Source: Sulfurospirillum sp. (GTDB taxonomy: Bacteria; Campylobacterota; Campylobacteria; Campylobacterales; Sulfurospirillaceae). From it: 64,000 nt of DNA. Position numbers and translations under genes: made by a program. Positions 17,517 to 34,376 of the stretch are shown in pieces; position 1 is the stretch's first letter, and every line of letters begins with the position of its first letter. The stretch is from NCBI GenBank assembly GCA_016744795.1, contig JADGDR010000006.1, positions 1 to 64,000 of the forward strand, given 5' to 3'. The notes beneath the pieces are model-generated. The model was given only the letters and a program-made list of their open reading frames with translations. It was not told where the DNA came from and did no database searches.

Positions 17517-17696
17517 ATGAAGTGTAACGTAGGTGGGAAAGATAAACTTAATAGAATTATAACAGGCGTAGCATTAATGGCTTATGGTGTTTATGCTAAT
17601 GAACCTATGGCGTATGCTGGAATACTTCCGTTAATAACAGGTATAGTAGGATTCTGTCCACTATACCCATTGTTCAAATACAGCTCAGTCAAATAA
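17517..17696 (+). CDS. Small DUF2892-like membrane protein
   Basis: 59 residues: MKCNVGGKDKLNRIITGVAL starts a typical DUF2892 (YgaP-type) protein with two short hydrophobic segments and the conserved GFCPLYPLF end. ATG 17517 lies two bases after the fbpC stop. Such proteins occur alone or fused to rhodanese domains; their function is unknown. It overlaps the convergent cyclotransferase-like gene by eight bases. Probably the last cistron of the iron operon. Confidence 0.8.
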   Translation: MKCNVGGKDKLNRIITGVALMAYGVYANEPMAYAGILPLITGIVGFCPLYPLFKYSSVK

Positions 17697-18186
17697 GTTC
17701 TATATCACCTTTTAAAGTGTTTTTATAGGTAGTTTTAAGATAATCATTTAAAAACTCTTTACCATGACATTTTGCACCATTTTTACAAATCTCAAAATAA
17801 TTAGAATTTGGTAAGATTTCATTACTTTGTTTATCTTCTTTGCCTTTATAGACTATGCAATTTTTTAAAATATTTCCATCACTATATAGTGTGACACTTC
17901 CATCTTTTAAACTAGATCTATTATAACCACGTTCACGGTAATCTAGCTCTTGTATATATTTATCATTTAAATTTTTTATAACAAGAGCATTAAACCAAGA
18001 ATTTTCGTCTTTTTCTATATTCATAACAGCTTTTTTTATGCCATCAACTTTTCTCCAAGATGGTAATTGATTAAAGACTCTTTTAAAGCCTTTAACCTTT
18101 ACCAAATCAACCCGTGAAGGGTCGATATTTTGTTTTTTAAGTTCATCTACATGTAAGAGGCTTCCATATATTATTTGGTTATACAT
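17689..18186 (-). CDS. Gamma-glutamylcyclotransferase-like protein
   Basis: 165 residues. The N-terminal YGSL (7-10), the acidic residue E85 in LDYRERGY, and the C-terminal Y-F-E-I-C...FLNDYLKTTY segment fit the GGCT/BtrG fold. There the YGSL loop binds the gamma-glutamyl group and a Glu is the acid/base, releasing 5-oxoproline from a gamma-glutamyl amine. It is the last gene of a leftward operon after kamA (nine-base gap). Its start codon lies inside a variant palindrome (18181-18190), and a second copy at 18147 encodes Leu-His-Val. The substrate is unknown; the context suggests a product made by the ATP-grasp enzyme. Confidence 0.72.
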   Translation of the reverse strand: MYNQIIYGSLLHVDELKKQNIDPSRVDLVKVKGFKRVFNQLPSWRKVDGIKKAVMNIEKDENSWFNALVIKNLNDKYIQELDYRERGYNRSSLKDGSVTLYSDGNILKNCIVYKGKEDKQSNEILPNSNYFEICKNGAKCHGKEFLNDYLKTTYKNTLKGDIELI

Positions 18187-18195
18187 GTAAACATC

Positions 18196-19785
18196 TTATT
18201 TGTATTTGTCAAAGGAGAATGGTTTGTTATACTCTTCCATACTCATATCTGGATAAGAAACTTCTGTACCATCCCAAGGTTTTTTAAGAATATAATCACT
18301 ACCTTCATTAACCTGTGAGACATTATCTCTATGAAGTGGAATTTTGCCACCAGCAGTTGCCAAATACCTAGGTATCGCATCTCCTGCAATGTTTCCATAC
18401 ATGCTTTCAACCAAATCACGTCCAACACTAATAGGAACTCTTAAATGCCCAAATTCAGGGTTTCTAAAACTACAATTAAACAGATAATATGGTCTAATGT
18501 AGGACTCTTGTAAAAGTTCAACCAATTTCCACATTTTATTTTGTGTGTCGTTTACCCCACGAAGCAGTACAGATTGATTTAAAATTGCACTTGTTACCTT
18601 ACTTAGTTTTTTAAATGCTTCATGCACTTCAGGAGTCATCTCTTGAGGTGTATTAATCTGAGTCACAAATCTAAGAGGTTTAATTGCATTACTTTTTGCA
18701 CAAATCTCTAAAAACTTGTCATCAATTCTTTGAGGAGTCATAACAGGAATACGACTACCGATTCTTTTTATTTTTACATGTGGAATTTTATCAAGCTCTT
18801 CAAAAAGATATTCAAGTCTTTTATTTGAAAGTGCTAGAGCGTCACCACCAGTTATTAGAACATCTCTTACTGTTGTATTGCCTCGGATATAGTTTAATGC
18901 TTCTTCATAAGTATTTTTACTACTTACCCAGTCTTTGTCACTTATATGGTCAAGTCTTAGACAGTAGGTACAAAACATAGCACACATATTTGTTGCTTTA
19001 ATTGTTAGAACTCTTGGGTAAAATTGATCTATTAGCCTTGCAGGAGAGTGATCACTCGCAACTGGTTCTATATTGATTCCTTTGTTATCAATCATATCTC
19101 CTGTTGGAACACTTTGGATTAAAATTGGGTCATTAACAACATTCGGCATAATCAAACTTGCATAATAAGGAGAAATCCTCATTCTAAATACACCAACAAC
19201 TCTTTGAATATCATCAATGAGTTTTTGAGGAATGTCAAGTATTTGGGCAAGTTGTTCACCTGATCTAATAGCATATTTGATTTGTCCACCATAACTGTCC
19301 CAATCTTCATCGCTCATTTTTAGTTTTTCTTGTATTTTTTTTCTATTTCTTTTGATTTGCTTTTGTAAGTCAAAACCGCTAGGAGCATCTTTTTTGTGAT
19401 TGTTTAGGTAGTTTTGAACTCTAGCATTTGCTGTTTTAGCAATTGGGAGAGCAGAGTATACTCTACCTCCAACGCTTACAGCATGTTCATCTGTTCTTTT
19501 GTGTTTTATTGCCATTAGATAAAGCTCATCCTTATCAATTCCTATATCTTTAGGCGTTGCTCCATGATTCTCTTTTATAGTCTTTAGTTTAACAAAAAGT
19601 TGAACCATAGGGTTAGTTAATCTAATTGAAGTTTTGCTAATTTCCAACCACTCTTTGACTTCATCAATCTCTTTTTGGCTTACTTCAGTTTTAGATTTTG
19701 AAGAAGAGTACAACAATTCAAAAAGTTTTATATCAAATTTATCTAATTTTTTTAAATCCACGCTATTTGTTTGGCTGCATTGCAT
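18196..19785 (-). CDS. KamA-family radical SAM 2,3-aminomutase
   Basis: 529 residues. The radical SAM cysteines are C268, C272 and C275 (CAMFCTYC), followed by LRLDHI and RDVLITGGDAL. The PLP lysine is K481 (AGGKIPL). The family moves the alpha-amino group of an amino acid to the beta carbon. By eye against Clostridium lysine 2,3-aminomutase, the two aspartates that bind the lysine side-chain amine (D293, D330) are Ser (in LFNCSF) and Thr (in LATAGG) here, so lysine is an unlikely substrate. An N-terminal extension of about 100 residues has no clear match. It lies three bases after the ATP-grasp gene. No acetyltransferase gene (AblB) is adjacent. Confidence 0.85.
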   Translation of the reverse strand: MQCSQTNSVDLKKLDKFDIKLFELLYSSSKSKTEVSQKEIDEVKEWLEISKTSIRLTNPMVQLFVKLKTIKENHGATPKDIGIDKDELYLMAIKHKRTDEHAVSVGGRVYSALPIAKTANARVQNYLNNHKKDAPSGFDLQKQIKRNRKKIQEKLKMSDEDWDSYGGQIKYAIRSGEQLAQILDIPQKLIDDIQRVVGVFRMRISPYYASLIMPNVVNDPILIQSVPTGDMIDNKGINIEPVASDHSPARLIDQFYPRVLTIKATNMCAMFCTYCLRLDHISDKDWVSSKNTYEEALNYIRGNTTVRDVLITGGDALALSNKRLEYLFEELDKIPHVKIKRIGSRIPVMTPQRIDDKFLEICAKSNAIKPLRFVTQINTPQEMTPEVHEAFKKLSKVTSAILNQSVLLRGVNDTQNKMWKLVELLQESYIRPYYLFNCSFRNPEFGHLRVPISVGRDLVESMYGNIAGDAIPRYLATAGGKIPLHRDNVSQVNEGSDYILKKPWDGTEVSYPDMSMEEYNKPFSFDKYK

Positions 19786-19788
19786 TTG

Positions 19789-21222
19789 TTATCCTTTAGT
19801 TGCATAATATGGGCAACTATAACACTTGTCATCTAAGGTAAAATTTTTATCAATATACGTTTTTACTGTATAGTTAATCATACGTCTACCCATCTCAATA
19901 CCATCTTCTACATCTTTGTAGCTTTTCCCAGTAGCAATAACTCGACCCAAAAATGAGCCTTCATTCACAAAAAAATCTTGTCCTATGTGTTCAAGTATCA
20001 TGAACTCCTTATTAATTTTATTTTGTGCTACATTTTGAAACATCTCAATTTCTCCACGCTGTTGTGGTAAATAGCTATGTGTTGTTAGTTTGTTATCTAT
20101 CTTGTAGTTATAAGAACTCCAATATATATCTGTTTTAAAGAAATCAGGTTCCCTCATATGAGGTGCTTGTTTGTTTTGTGTTACAGCGTAAAATTCAATT
20201 TCAGGAAGATTTGGAGAACCAAGAGAAAGTTCAGTTTTTAAAGCACAGCAAAACTCCATAGTAGTACCTTGTTTTCTAGGATTTGTCTCTATAAAAAAAA
20301 CCTCATTTTTATTGGTAACTATATAATCGCAGCCAAATATCCCTCTATATCCTAGCGAAGCCATTTTTTTACCTACTACTTTTGTTTGCCTTATAATTTC
20401 TTTTTGAATTTCTTTTGACATTTTTGATGGAAATGTTGAGCCTTTAAATTTTGTTCCATCTATTCTTTGGTCTGCAACTCCTCCTACATATATCTCTTCT
20501 TCATTGATGACAACACCAAGAGTTGTTGGGTCACAGATATGATCTATATATTCAGTTATTAAAAAAGTATCATTTATATTTGAGCTAAATTTCATTCTAA
20601 TATCTTCTAAACAATAAGCTATGATGCTATTTGCTCCAGCAGCACTAAGTTCTAGTGATATAAATAGAGGATTTCCAGTTCTTTGCATCAATTTTTGTGA
20701 ACTCTGTATAAGCTCATCATATGAGTGTATTATGTTGTAGTTTGCCATAGGTACGATGTTAGAAAATATTTCATATAGAGACATTTTATTGTTTAATATT
20801 GTAACAATTTCACTTTTTGGGCCTATTAAAATAACACCATCTTTTTTATCTAGAGTCATAAAAGGGCTTGATTCAAACATATATATATAAAGCTCATTTT
20901 GATTAGAAAGAATTGTATCTATAACAGAGTGTATATACGCACTATTAGAGATATCATTTATGAATTCATCATGTTTTTTTCTTTTATTTTGTTTATCTTT
21001 TAAATCGTTTATAATGATGAGGTTGTCGTAGTTATATTGTTCAAACACATCAGGAGATATGCTAATAAATTCAATTTTTTCTTTTGAAATTTCTAAGATT
21101 TTTGACAATGCTTCTTTAAAAAAATGACCAATACCATAAGCCTTTAGTTCACTTATAAATAAAAAATAGTATATATTCTTGTCATACTTAAAGTTACTAA
21201 ATCTTACGTCTATTTTTTTCAT
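19789..21222 (-). CDS. ATP-grasp ligase-like protein
   Basis: 477 residues. The middle (about 145-330) is an ATP-grasp fold: the phosphate loop region ELSAAGANS, LITEYID, and the metal-binding end GIFGCDY...FFIETNPRKQGTT with D299, E312, N314 and R316. ATP-grasp enzymes join a carboxylate to an amine or thiol through an acyl phosphate. The C-terminus carries an unusual CYSCPYY pair (C467, C470) that could hold a metal or a disulfide. It starts inside the gntR stop (ATGA overlap) and is followed directly by kamA. The substrate is unknown; ligation of an amino acid is the likely class of reaction. Confidence 0.75.
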   Translation of the reverse strand: MKKIDVRFSNFKYDKNIYYFLFISELKAYGIGHFFKEALSKILEISKEKIEFISISPDVFEQYNYDNLIIINDLKDKQNKRKKHDEFINDISNSAYIHSVIDTILSNQNELYIYMFESSPFMTLDKKDGVILIGPKSEIVTILNNKMSLYEIFSNIVPMANYNIIHSYDELIQSSQKLMQRTGNPLFISLELSAAGANSIIAYCLEDIRMKFSSNINDTFLITEYIDHICDPTTLGVVINEEEIYVGGVADQRIDGTKFKGSTFPSKMSKEIQKEIIRQTKVVGKKMASLGYRGIFGCDYIVTNKNEVFFIETNPRKQGTTMEFCCALKTELSLGSPNLPEIEFYAVTQNKQAPHMREPDFFKTDIYWSSYNYKIDNKLTTHSYLPQQRGEIEMFQNVAQNKINKEFMILEHIGQDFFVNEGSFLGRVIATGKSYKDVEDGIEMGRRMINYTVKTYIDKNFTLDDKCYSCPYYATKG

Positions 21223-21866
21223 TTTACTTCTCTTAGTAAAATTATTTTTGTTCCAGTTTCAAAGTAATGCTCTCGTATAATATCTTCAATATTTTTTTTG
21301 TCTCTTGAAATTATGGTTTCTACAATCTTTTGGTGCCTTTCTTGCACCTCTTTTTGTGAGTACAGTCTTGTCCAGTTTTTATAAAAAAGTAGTTGAGATT
21401 TTTTATTTATCTTTTCCAAAGTTTCCAAAAATACACTATTTTTTGCATATTTTAGAGTAAGTTTATGGAACTCTTCTCCTATTTTAACTACCTTTTTTCT
21501 ATCAATATTAGAATCACTCATTTCCTTTACATGTAAAGATAATTGCTTTATATCTTTTTTTGTTGCTTGTAGAGCAAATTCAGTAGCTAAAAAACCTTCG
21601 ATAACGCCTTTTGATTCATATGTGTCATATATGTCTTTTGAAGTTATCTCTTTAACAAATACTCCTTTTCTTGCAATTTGCTCTAACACTCCTAAAGATA
21701 CAAGTTCTAAAAGAGCTTCTCTAACGGGGGCTCTACTAACATGCAATTTTTCTGATAGATACAATTCTTTTACTTGACTACCTTGTGCATATTCTTCATT
21801 TATAATTGCACTATATATATAATCAATGATTTTATCTTTTAATGGTTCTTTATATTTATTTATCAT
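21219..21866 (-). CDS. GntR-family (FCD-type) transcriptional regulator
   Basis: 215 residues. An N-terminal winged helix-turn-helix (about 8-72: LSEKLHVSRAPVREALLELV and the wing QIARKGVFVKEIT) and an all-helical FCD ligand domain (80-205) place it in the FadR branch. FCD ligands are usually small organic or amino acids held by a metal. It is first in the leftward operon and divergent from the TRAP transporter. Two identical palindromes begin 12 bases upstream of its start and are its probable operator. Confidence 0.88.
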   Translation of the reverse strand: MINKYKEPLKDKIIDYIYSAIINEEYAQGSQVKELYLSEKLHVSRAPVREALLELVSLGVLEQIARKGVFVKEITSKDIYDTYESKGVIEGFLATEFALQATKKDIKQLSLHVKEMSDSNIDRKKVVKIGEEFHKLTLKYAKNSVFLETLEKINKKSQLLFYKNWTRLYSQKEVQERHQKIVETIISRDKKNIEDIIREHYFETGTKIILLREVK

Positions 21867-21878
21867 TTTTAAAGTCCT

Positions 21879-21909
21879 TTGTCGACAATTTATATCATAT
21901 TGTCGACAA
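21879..21909. promoter_or_regulatory. Twin palindromic operator TTGTCGACAA, probably for the GntR protein
   Basis: TTGTCGACAA occurs at 21879-21888 and again, identically, at 21900-21909. The spacing is 21 bases from copy to copy, two helical turns, so both face the same side of DNA. Each copy has the T-G-T/A-C-A style of FadR-type sites. The site sits in the 234-base divergent gap and could control both the gntR operon and the TRAP genes. Confidence 0.75.
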
Positions 21910-22100: not shown

Positions 22101-23057
22101 ATGACTAAGAAATTAGCAACTATTGCTTTAGTAGGTGCATTGTCTATGCCTTTAATGGCAACAGATTTTGTAACAATTGGTACAGGCGGTGTTACAGGTG
22201 TTTATTATCCAACAGGTGGTTCAATTTGCCGTTTAGTAAACAAAGGTAAAAAAGAGCATGGCGTAAGATGCTCAGTTGAGTCTACTGGCGGTTCTATCTA
22301 TAATATTAATACAATTAGAGCCGGAGAACTTGATATGGGTGTTGCTCAATCAGATTGGCAATATCATGCATATAATGGTACTAGCAAGTTTAAAAGTAAA
22401 GGTCCGTTCAAAGAGTTAAGATCAATTTTTTCTATTCATGGCGAGCCTTTTACTGTTGTTGCTCGTGCTGATTCTGGTATTAAAAATTTTGCTGATCTTA
22501 AAGGTAAAAGAGTAAATATAGGAAATCCTGGTTCAGGAAGTCGCAGTACCATGGAATTAGCGATGAAAGCTGAAGGATGGGATAAATCTGTTTTTAAATT
22601 GGCTTCTGAGCTAAAAGCTTCTGAAATGGCAAAAGCACTTTGCGATAACAAAATTGATGCTATGATGTATGTTGTTGGTCATCCATCTGGTTCTATAAAA
22701 GAAGCTACAACTACTTGTGATAGTGTTCTTGTAAATGTAAGTGATGCAAATATACAAAAATTAGTTGCAGATAATTCTTACTATAAATTTACTACTATTC
22801 CTGGTGGAATGTATAGAGGAAATCCAGATGATGTTAAAACATTTGGTGTTGCTGCAACTTTTGTAACTTCTTCAAAAGTTTCAGAAAAAGTTATCTACAC
22901 AGTAGTAAAAGCGGTATTTGAAAACTTTGATGCTTTTAAAAAGCTTCATCCAGCTTTTGCTAATCTTACAAAAGAAGATATGGTAAAAAATGGTAATTCT
23001 GCTCCACTTCACAGAGGGGCAATTAAGTATTATAAAGAAGTTGGTCTTATTAAATAA
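22101..23057 (+). CDS. TAXI-family TRAP transporter substrate-binding protein
   Basis: 318 residues with a signal peptide (about 1-21, ending LMATD). The mature protein starts [18 protein letters not shown], the TAXI signature, and continues with [21 protein letters not shown] and [10 protein letters not shown]. It is a periplasmic receptor for the fused TRAP permease downstream. Characterised TAXI proteins include glutamate/glutamine binders; the ligand here is not readable. ATG 22101 has AAGGAG. A stable hairpin follows the gene and may allow more receptor than permease to be made. Confidence 0.92.
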
Positions 23058-23163: not shown

Positions 23164-25737
23164 GTGAAAGAAGAAAAAAAATCGGCCCAGGATATGGTAA
23201 TAGAGGCTGAATCTGGCGGTCGCGATCCTTCAAATCCATATTTGGCAAAATTTATACTTTATCTTGCGTTAGTTTGGTCTCTTTTTCAATTATTTGTTTC
23301 ATCGCCACTTGTTCTTGAGTTTACCCCATGGATGAATGCTGATGTTGTTAAGCGTATACATCTAATGTTTGCTGGTTTCTTAGCTTATTTGAGTTATTTG
23401 CCTTTTAAATCTTCACCGAAAAAATATGTACCTATTACTGATTGGATTATGGGCATATTGCTGATTTTGTCAGTTGCATATATTATATATGGGCAAGTTT
23501 GGGATGCTGATGTTTTTGAAATGAGATTAGGTGTGCCAAATAAACTTGATTTGATTACAAGTCTAATAGGTTTAGCTCTTTTGCTTGAAGCAACAAGACG
23601 TTCACTTGGTCCACCGCTTATGGTAGTTGCTATTCTTGCTTTAACGTATGCATATTTTGGTATGGGAGATTATGGTGGGGCATCTGTTAATAAAATAGTA
23701 TCTCATATGTGGATAACTACAGAAGGTGCTTTTGGTATTGCAATTGGAGTTTCTGCAACAATGGTTTTCTTATTTGTACTTTTTGGTGCATTATTGGAAC
23801 AAGCTGGGGCTGGTAACTATTTTATAAGGGTCGCATTTTCATTAATGGGACACTTCAGAGGTGGACCTGCTAAAGCTGCTGTTGTAAGTTCTGCAATGAC
23901 TGGTATGATTTCAGGATCATCTATTGCTAATGTTGTTACAACAGGAACTTTTACAATTCCTTTAATGAAAAAAGTAGGATTTTCAAGTGAAAAAGCTGGA
24001 GCTATTGAAGTTGCATCTTCGACAAATGGTCAACTAACACCTCCAATTATGGGAGCTGCAGCTTTTTTAATGGTAGAGTATGTGGGTATACCTTTTATTG
24101 AAATTATAAAACATGCATTTTTACCAGCTGTTATTTCTTATATTGCACTTATCTATATCGTGCATTTAGAAGCTTTGAAAGCAGGAATGAAAGGTATGCC
24201 TCGTCCTTATAAGATGAATAGAATGGGTAAGATGATAGGAGTGCTTAGCGTTGTAGTGGTACTTGGTTTTTTAACCTGGGTATTACCTCCAATTATCGCT
24301 TATATAAAAGGTGCAGCCGGTGAGTATACTATGACAGCTATTATGGCAATGATTGGTGTATCTTATGTAGGATTAGTATATTACTCTTCACGAGTACCAG
24401 ATTTAACAAATGAAGAAATTGTTGAGCTTCCAGAAGTTGGACCTACTGTTAAATCAGGATTACATTACTTATTACCTGTTGTAGTTTTAGTTTGGTTATT
24501 AACAGTTGAAAGACTCTCACCAGATCTTTCAGCATTTTGGGCATCAATTTTTATGATTTTTATTGTTTTAACGCAAAAACCAATGATGGATTTCTTTAGA
24601 GGTGAAAAGAAAATATTTGGTCGTTTAAAAGAGGGTTTAATAGATTTAGAAATCGGTTTGATTAATGGTGCTAAAAATATGATTGGTATTGGTGTTGCTA
24701 CAGCAGTGGCTGGTATTATTGTTGGTACAGTTACTTTAACTGGTATCGGTCAAGTTGTTATAGGATTGGTAGAAACTGTTTCAGGTGGGAATATCTTCTT
24801 AATTCTTTTACTAACGGCCATCATTAGTTTGATTCTTGGTATGGGTCTTCCTACAACTGCAAACTATATTGTTGTATCTTCTCTTATGGCTCCAGTTATT
24901 GTTAGTCTTGGGGCTGCTAATGACATAGCTATACCATTAATTGCAGCACATATGTTTGTATTTTATTTTGGTATTTTAGCTGATGACACCCCACCTGTTG
25001 GGCTTGCTGCTTTTGCCGCCGCCGCCATATCTAAAGGTGATCCTATAAAAACTGGTATTCAAGGATTTACCTATGATATTCGTACAGCATTGTTGCCATT
25101 TATGTTTATTTTTAATACTCAGCTTTTGATGATAGGTATTGATAATACTTTTGAATTTATTATAGTCGTTGTTACTGCTATTGTAGGAATGTTGCTTTTT
25201 GCGGCTGCAACACAAGGATATTGGTTTACAAAAAATCGTTGGAGTGAAACAGTACTTCTTTTAGCATTGACATTTTTAATGTTTAGACCAGGATATATAT
25301 GGGATAAAATAGAACCACCATTTGATCATGTTTCAGGTAAAGAGATATTTAAAGTTGCTGATAAGATGAAAGCTGGAGAAAGATTAGAATTTGTAGTTAG
25401 TGGAGAAACACTTGAGGGTGTTGAAAGAAAATATACATTTGCTTTACCTTTAGTTGAAGGAAAAACTGGAAAAGAACGTATAGATGGTACTGGTATGCAA
25501 TTAGATGATCTATTTGGTCCCATGGAAGTGGCTATGATTCTACCTGGTAATAACAAACAAGTTGAGGCTATAAAAAGAGCTGGAGTAGATAGTGGTTGGA
25601 TTATTGAAAACGTAAAAGTAAAAAGAGATAGACTACCTAAACAAATTGTTCTTATTCCCGTTTTTATGGCAGTATTTTTCTTAGCTTGGATTCAAATTAA
25701 ACGTAGAAGAAAATTAGAAAAAGAAGGAGTGGAGTAA
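23164..25737 (+). CDS. TRAP transporter fused permease (4TM-12TM)
   Basis: 857 residues from GTG 23164, with AAGGAGGA just upstream. The small (Q) and large (M) TRAP membrane subunits are fused, as in TAXI systems. The M domain shows SSAMTGMISGSSIANVVTTG, TNGQLTPPIMGAAAFLMVEY and GLPTTANYIVVSSL. The C-terminal 150 residues after about 705 include a soluble segment (FDHVSGKEIF onward, DUF3394-like) and a final helix. It uses the sodium gradient to import the substrate caught by the TAXI protein. Its TAA and the next ATG overlap (TAATG). Confidence 0.92.
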   Translation: MKEEKKSAQDMVIEAESGGRDPSNPYLAKFILYLALVWSLFQLFVSSPLVLEFTPWMNADVVKRIHLMFAGFLAYLSYLPFKSSPKKYVPITDWIMGILLILSVAYIIYGQVWDADVFEMRLGVPNKLDLITSLIGLALLLEATRRSLGPPLMVVAILALTYAYFGMGDYGGASVNKIVSHMWITTEGAFGIAIGVSATMVFLFVLFGALLEQAGAGNYFIRVAFSLMGHFRGGPAKAAVVSSAMTGMISGSSIANVVTTGTFTIPLMKKVGFSSEKAGAIEVASSTNGQLTPPIMGAAAFLMVEYVGIPFIEIIKHAFLPAVISYIALIYIVHLEALKAGMKGMPRPYKMNRMGKMIGVLSVVVVLGFLTWVLPPIIAYIKGAAGEYTMTAIMAMIGVSYVGLVYYSSRVPDLTNEEIVELPEVGPTVKSGLHYLLPVVVLVWLLTVERLSPDLSAFWASIFMIFIVLTQKPMMDFFRGEKKIFGRLKEGLIDLEIGLINGAKNMIGIGVATAVAGIIVGTVTLTGIGQVVIGLVETVSGGNIFLILLLTAIISLILGMGLPTTANYIVVSSLMAPVIVSLGAANDIAIPLIAAHMFVFYFGILADDTPPVGLAAFAAAAISKGDPIKTGIQGFTYDIRTALLPFMFIFNTQLLMIGIDNTFEFIIVVVTAIVGMLLFAAATQGYWFTKNRWSETVLLLALTFLMFRPGYIWDKIEPPFDHVSGKEIFKVADKMKAGERLEFVVSGETLEGVERKYTFALPLVEGKTGKERIDGTGMQLDDLFGPMEVAMILPGNNKQVEAIKRAGVDSGWIIENVKVKRDRLPKQIVLIPVFMAVFFLAWIQIKRRRKLEKEGVE

Positions 25738-33536: not shown

Positions 33537-34376
33537 AAAAGGGGTCGGAGCTAAACTTTTAACTTTTGTGTTATAATATAGACAAAAAGAGTCAAATGCC
33601 AAGAAGATTAAGAGTAGAAGTTTGTGGCTATCATCATATTTACAATAGAGGCGTTGCTAAAAGTGATATTTTTCTAAATAATAGCGATAAAGAAAAGTTT
33701 TTAGAGATATTAAGTGAAACTTCTAAGGAATATAAATTTAATATTCATTCCTTTTGTCTTATGGACAATCATTACCATCTTTTACTAGAAAATCAAAAAG
33801 AGAATTTATCAGATGGAATGAGGCAAATAAACTCAAAATATGCAAGTTATTTTAATAAAAAGTATAGAAGAGTTGGACATCTTTGGCAAGATAGATTTAA
33901 ATCTTGGTATGTTTTAAATGAGGCTTATCTTTTTACACTTTTCAAATATATAGAACAAAACCCAGTAAAAGCAAACATGACAAAAAAGATTGGTGAGTAT
34001 AGGTATAGTGCCTCATATAGCATTTTAAGAGATGGAATACCACCTTTTTTACAAAACTCCTTTGTATTAAGAGATTATCATACTAAAGAGTTATTTGATA
34101 TGTTAGATATCACTCTTAATAAAGCAGAACTTGAAAATATAGATAAATTCCACAAAACAAAATACAAAGAAGTTGATGGGACAATTGAACCTATTAAAAA
34201 AATACCATTAAGAAAATATTTTCTACATGTAGACAATAAAGACAAGAGAAATCTTGCAATCTTAAAAGCAAATAGTGAAGACTACACAAAGAGTGAAATA
34301 GCAAGAGAATTATCTTTAAGTGTAGCTGGAGTAAGTAAAATCATTAAAAAGTTAAAAGTTTAACCCTGACCCCTTT
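33537..34376. mobile_element. RAYT element with imperfect terminal inverted repeats
   Basis: The 31 bases at 33537-33567 (AAAAGGGGTC...AACTTTT) match the reverse complement of 34346-34376 at 28 positions. They bracket a Y1 transposase gene whose last codons lie inside the right repeat. The right end is about 55 bases from the gyrA start. No target duplication was recognised. Confidence 0.65.
33596..34363 (+). CDS. REP-associated tyrosine transposase (RAYT, Y1 family)
   Basis: 255 residues from ATG 33596. The longer frame from TTG 33566 runs through the probable -10 (TATAAT 33572-33577) and is rejected. The HUH motif is H59-Y-H61 (DNHYHLLL) and the nucleophile is probably Y118 (KYIEQNPVKA). 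GYHHIYNRG at the start and RRVGHLWQDRFKS are typical RAYT features. The C-terminus ends in a helix-turn-helix-like segment (KSEIARELSLSVAGVSKIIKKL), which may bind the palindromes. Such enzymes are usually domesticated and move short REP sequences rather than themselves. Confidence 0.9.
   Translation: MPRRLRVEVCGYHHIYNRGVAKSDIFLNNSDKEKFLEILSETSKEYKFNIHSFCLMDNHYHLLLENQKENLSDGMRQINSKYASYFNKKYRRVGHLWQDRFKSWYVLNEAYLFTLFKYIEQNPVKANMTKKIGEYRYSASYSILRDGIPPFLQNSFVLRDYHTKELFDMLDITLNKAELENIDKFHKTKYKEVDGTIEPIKKIPLRKYFLHVDNKDKRNLAILKANSEDYTKSEIARELSLSVAGVSKIIKKLKV

Follow-up and report, generated by a model that had tools for sequence, protein, structure and literature searches.

In lysine 2,3-aminomutase (KAM), a radical-SAM, PLP-dependent enzyme of the KamA family, R134 reads the α-carboxylate of the substrate and K337 is the PLP lysine. 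The positions of its two lysine-binding aspartates, D293 and D330, are occupied differently in the related enzymes: in the alignment described below KAMs carry Asp/Asp, glutamate 2,3-aminomutase (EAM) controls carry Lys/Asn, as the original prediction had it, and the arginine 2,3-aminomutase BlsG carries Asp/Thr. β-Amino acids are compatible solutes mainly of methanogens, and β-glutamate has been detected in few bacteria (review, PMC1224877).

The gene studied here encodes a KamA-family protein and lies on the minus strand, which had not been specified before, of the window, the 64,000-nucleotide stretch of a Sulfurospirillum contig that was analysed. Its surroundings are as follows.

17689–18186, minus strand: predicted γ-glutamyl-cyclotransferase-fold protein, 165 aa, downstream of the aminomutase
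18196–19785, minus strand: KamA-family (radical SAM, PLP) aminomutase, 529 aa, an exact ORF
19789–21222, minus strand: ATP-grasp ligase of 477 aa, separated by 3 bp from the aminomutase gene that follows
21219–21866, minus strand: transcriptional regulator of the GntR/FCD type, whose gene opens the operon and overlaps the ligase start
21879–21909, no strand: predicted operator of two palindromes in tandem, TTGTCGACAA-N11-TTGTCGACAA, located in the promoter region between the divergent gntR and TAXI genes
22101–23057, plus strand: TRAP solute-binding protein of the TAXI family, encoded divergently from the operon
23164–25737, plus strand: fused TRAP transporter permease with DUF3394

Elsewhere in the window, an ORF at 33566–34363 resembles a REP-associated (Y1-type) transposase.

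The umbrella KamA profile is the sole curated profile whose cut-off the protein passes (TIGR00238, 237.9 bits, cut-off 199.2). Its best curated family is EAM (TIGR04368, 321.2 bits, cut-off 650); the profiles for KAM (TIGR03820, 273.3 bits, cut-off 525.4), arginine 2,3-aminomutase (TIGR04468, 234.4 bits, cut-off 600) and EpmB, of EF-P β-lysylation (TIGR03821, 192.9 bits, cut-off 369.3), were also well short of their thresholds. The only solved structure matched by the sequence is 2A5H (phmmer, E 1e-62). The genome contains no second KamA homologue at E 0.001, and plasmid relatives are distant KamA proteins, with identities of at most 36% among the matches listed.

The protein was aligned by MAFFT L-INS-i with KAM, EAM, BlsG, EpmB and AblA-like references, with KAM numbering anchored on C125, D96, R134, D293, D330 and K337. 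The orthologue sample consists of 69 loci from named genomes, mostly Desulfobacterota with a few Campylobacterota, many with marine or saline names; one locus is labelled SAR324 and one Micrarchaeota (L088, possibly a binning error), and L095 is a true EAM that served as a control. Residue counts exclude gapped rows, which are mostly incomplete sequences. Both this alignment and the phmmer match to 2A5H place S439 at the position of D293 and T477 at that of D330, with no aspartate at either. The reading by eye in the original prediction, of Ser and Thr in place of both the Asp/Asp and the Lys/Asn pair, is thereby borne out. Serine is present in 67/67 aligned orthologues and threonine in 65/66, with one Ser; since the pair is kept to this extent across Campylobacterota and Desulfobacterota, it is not a sporadic mutation. 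L137, an outlier with 48% identity on a short contig lacking cassette genes, has an S/L pair.

The cofactor residues were correctly described as intact. The cysteines of the CxxxCxxC motif (C268, C272 and C275) are kept in 69/69 rows, and the PLP lysine K481 (KAM K337) in 65/66 orthologues. R277, a carboxylate-type arginine equivalent to KAM R134, is invariant or nearly so, and the positions of R134, Y113, Q258, Y287 and Y288 are kept in nearly every orthologue. By analogy with KAM, this conservation of the R134 and K337 equivalents suggests that the substrate would have a free α-carboxylate and α-amine. Four residues that are otherwise near-universal in the family are lost throughout the Ser/Thr (S/T) clade: D96 is replaced by I, L or M, R112 by F, R116 by V and R130 by T. 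The expectation that the enzyme should be active, based on the cofactor residues, is therefore weaker than was originally stated. Further features distinguish the clade. Arg441, beside Ser439 and within a one-residue insertion (CS[FY]RNP), is invariant (67/67), and the loop bearing the PLP lysine is three residues shorter (DAPGGGGK to TAGGK). The N-terminal extension that had been noticed amounts to approximately 115 aa relative to EAM and 155 aa relative to KAM; the clade retains it throughout, and EAMs and KAMs lack it.

Phylogenetic analysis, which had been proposed as a check, places the proteins in a clade of their own beside the EAMs. In a 67-row tree the S/T clade is monophyletic (100/99) and groups with the EAMs (88/96). 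A second tree recovers a group of EAM-like enzymes with Lys/Thr (K/T) at the two positions as sister of the S/T clade (98/92); the S/T and K/T groups together join EAM at 100/100, and the S/T clade does not fall among the EAMs themselves. Its stem is long, at 2.43 changes per column in this second tree, and L137 and other long rows are placed less certainly. The K/T enzymes score 604–632 bits against TIGR04368 (two members scanned), near but not over the cut-off of 650. Judged from the sequences, the aminomutase is best described as a new, EAM-derived subfamily with a rebuilt pocket.

The genomic neighbourhood is also conserved. Among the loci, which were fetched by their aminomutase, an ATP-grasp ligase gene lies directly upstream in 55 of the 63 with enough sequence, and directly downstream there is an M20 peptidase (37) or a cyclotransferase-fold gene (6), together 43 of 62 testable loci. 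The slot after the aminomutase holds the M20 peptidase in Desulfobacterota and the cyclotransferase-fold gene in Sulfurospirillum-type genomes. TAXI-TRAP genes are found near 23/69 loci and a GntR gene near 18/69. In K/T cassettes the order ligase–aminomutase–M20 occurs in six genomes, and the ligase and the EAM-like enzyme can be fused in one reading frame, with the M20 gene next (L190:1891-4659, minus strand, 922 aa; L220, approximately 934 aa). No prior description of a ligase–aminomutase–hydrolase cassette was found in the open-access literature.

When the ligase profile was used independently as the query, 395 Desulfobacterota genomes yielded the ligase in 8; the accompanying aminomutase was of the S/T type in three and of the K/T type in two, and three had none. 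The ligase family can thus occur apart from the aminomutase, as these three solo copies lacking a KamA neighbour show (G646, G710 and G824). Within the class of one K/T genome the ligase is present in 8/56 genomes, in three S/T and five K/T cassettes. Solo relatives of the ligase, approximately 42% identical and without KamA, are those at L204, L205 and L206, and at L205 a protein resembling a B12-type radical SAM enzyme is encoded alongside. A KamA and ATP-grasp pair of Rhizobium was considered as a relative and rejected, its ligase matching that of the window at a non-significant E of 0.66.

Several loci contain additional genes. Three that lack the ligase gene (L072, L082 and L086) have γ-glutamyltransferase-like genes near the aminomutase, and L082 and L086 have oligopeptide-type ABC transporters. 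A KamA-like protein of approximately 600 aa, with Lys/Phe at the D293/D330 positions and a very long branch, is encoded near the cassette in Desulfoprunum and is also present in two Desulfopila genomes (L048:4052-5851, minus strand; L109–L111). A divergent second KamA paralogue with an Arg/Met pair lies beside the cassette in soda-lake sulfate reducers (L064:186-1304, minus strand; L079; L081), with relatives in other Campylobacterota. At L043:4176-6629 a glutamine-synthetase-like gene and a further KamA homologue are found downstream of the aminomutase.

The identities of the partner proteins are drawn from remote similarities. The 165-aa protein has no match in Pfam, NCBIfam or PDB sequences. 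Its AlphaFold model (pLDDT 81) has as best Foldseek match human γ-glutamyl cyclotransferase (3cry, E 9.6e-6, probability 1.00), so that the model predicts a γ-glutamyl-cyclotransferase fold. The sequence has a YGSL-type start and an LDxRExGY motif with an invariant Glu85, which may correspond to the motif of the cyclotransferase family with its catalytic Glu. The nearest solved relative of the M20 protein is carboxypeptidase G2, again remote and below curated cut-offs. For the ligase, the nearest solved match by profile is BesA, an L-propargylglycine–L-glutamate ligase (E 3e-9, with only about 100 residues aligned); the best structural matches of its model, PurT and biotin carboxylase, are uninformative on substrate. 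Each link is remote, but the cyclotransferase fold, carboxypeptidase G2, BesA and the γ-glutamyltransferase-like genes all point to γ-glutamyl or glutamate amide chemistry.

Comparison of the two gene trees suggests that the aminomutase and the ligase have not always descended together. In the ligase tree the ligases of K/T cassettes nest inside those of S/T cassettes, with starred support, in conflict with the aminomutase tree, where S/T and K/T enzymes form separate clades. The simplest reading of this disagreement is at least one replacement of one aminomutase type by the other in a retained cassette; the argument depends on the rooting of the ligase tree, for which a distant outgroup was used, its ligases being only 42% identical. 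It is chiefly on account of this apparent exchange that we expect S/T and K/T enzymes to share a substrate or to have closely related ones.

The region separating gntR from the TAXI gene contains two copies of TTGTCGACAA at a spacing of 21 bp, a tandem that is unique in the genome. Across the orthologous loci the ten-base element has 25 occurrences where 0.8 would be expected; they come from both phyla, and most precede gntR or fall where the ligase region begins. Of the orthologous loci with a GntR gene, the majority have the element upstream of that gene. K/T cassettes lack the element. Elsewhere, eam genes are found together with Na+ riboswitches (PMC9337991); neither the vicinity of the gene in the window nor nine orthologous loci gave an Rfam match for an upstream riboswitch. 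The patchy presence of the cassette in Campylobacterota, together with regulator and operator, suggests that it has moved by transfer as a whole unit.

Our preferred interpretation, to which we assign a probability of roughly 55%, is that the protein is an EAM-derived SAM/PLP 2,3-aminomutase acting on glutamate or on a derivative in which only the side-chain carboxylate is modified, such as a γ-glutamyl amide, within a ligase/hydrolase cassette that would both make and recycle a β-amino-acid compound of the β-glutamate type. Since the S/T clade is sister to the K/T EAM-like enzymes, shares their cassette and appears to have swapped partners with them, the likeliest substrate is probably still glutamate or a γ-glutamyl derivative, and not an unrelated amino acid. 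As the cofactor ligands are intact, the chemistry would be standard: the [4Fe-4S] cluster would cleave SAM, the 5′-deoxyadenosyl radical would abstract hydrogen from C3 of the PLP aldimine, and migration of the amino group from C2 to C3 would yield a β-amino acid. What the sequences show directly is the homology and ancestry of the enzyme, the cassette with its fusions and the conserved motif; we infer the substrate and the physiological role, as well as bond type, direction and regulation. The ATP-grasp ligase would most likely couple the product to another carboxylate or amine, probably through a γ-glutamyl bond, which the M20 peptidase, or the cyclotransferase-fold protein in Sulfurospirillum-type genomes, would break. 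The TRAP transporter, where present, may import a precursor or recover the product, and control of the gene set would fall to the GntR regulator acting at TTGTCGACAA. A β-glutamate-type compatible solute of marine anaerobes is a possible product; the taxa and the transporter make such an osmolyte role plausible.

Several points weigh against this interpretation. The signature Lys of EAM is gone, and with a stem of such length and the loss of D96, R112, R116 and R130 the substrate may have changed. The assignments of ligase, M20 peptidase and cyclotransferase are remote, the ligase and hydrolase could represent sequential, opposing or unrelated steps, and the swap argument hinges on the outgroup rooting.

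A different order of steps is the foremost alternative, and we regard it as a tentative one that is less probable but deserves attention. The rebuilt pocket could take a neutral, elongated side chain, with the ligase acting first and the mutase isomerizing a ligase-made γ-glutamyl amide or peptide, or glutamine. A pocket with Ser/Thr in place of Lys/Asn is better matched to an amide than to a free carboxylate, and the invariant Arg441 could bind a carboxylate on the attached group. The order ligase–mutase–hydrolase, in the genes as in the fusions, and the clustering of γ-glutamyl-type enzymes around the aminomutase gene fit the same scheme. However, the K/T enzymes occupy the same cassette and retain the lysine with which EAM recognises the free carboxylate. 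The usual cyclotransferase route proceeds through a five-membered ring, by which, on our reasoning, a β-glutamyl product could not be released. An extension of this scheme, which we consider rather unlikely, is that marine sulfate reducers and some Campylobacterota have a pathway in which the EAM-derived mutase converts ligase-made γ-glutamyl compounds into a β-glutamyl dipeptide or amide that is not yet known as a natural compatible solute.

The original prediction went further in suggesting a new substrate. This stands in so far as the protein has neither residue pair, scores far below the lysine, glutamate and arginine cut-offs and forms its own clade. An aminomutase of new specificity, with a substrate unrelated to glutamate, would accord with the absence of any known pair, the long stem, the N-terminal extension and the failure of all equivalog cut-offs; the EAM ancestry, and the cassette and apparent swap shared with K/T EAM-like enzymes, make an entirely new substrate improbable in our view. 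More doubtful still is the idea that the protein is no longer an aminomutase, catalysing another SAM-radical reaction or binding PLP differently. The clade-wide loss of the four conserved residues and the shortened PLP-lysine loop would agree with it, but the PLP lysine, the cluster cysteines and the five further positions named above are kept in nearly all orthologues. Finally, the KamA-family score of 237.9 bits would allow an ordinary lysine 2,3-aminomutase (AblA) with harmless or drifted substitutions, but this is effectively ruled out by the absence of both lysine-binding aspartates in all orthologues, the grouping of the tree with EAMs and not KAMs, and a KAM score of 273 bits where 525 would be needed.

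An aminomutase cassette that is conserved and regulated in marine sulfate reducers would indicate a genetic basis for β-amino-acid compounds in anaerobic marine bacteria. It would also offer an unusually clear test of how the pocket of a radical-SAM aminomutase can change, among Asp/Asp, Lys/Asn, Lys/Thr and Ser/Thr, while the surrounding pathway is kept.

Compared with the characterised enzymes, the window protein shares with lysine 2,3-aminomutase (AblA/KamA, 2A5H) the catalytic domain, the radical-SAM motif and the PLP lysine, but has neither of the lysine-binding aspartates and branches elsewhere in the tree. BlsG also has Thr at the D330 position and a shortened PLP loop; unlike the window protein, it keeps Asp at the D293 position, belongs to an antibiotic cluster and occupies a separate branch. 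The closest characterised group, by profile and tree, is EAM, which has the cluster cysteines, the PLP lysine and the carboxylate Arg in common with the window clade; the clade differs in having Ser/Thr for Lys/Asn, in the loss of D96, R112, R116 and R130 and in its longer N-terminus. The K/T EAM-like enzymes (L189, L190 and L219–L222) have the same partner genes in the same order and Thr at the D330 position but, in contrast with the window clade, they keep Lys at the D293 position as well as D96, R116 and R130, have no N-terminal extension, and in some cases are fused to the ligase.
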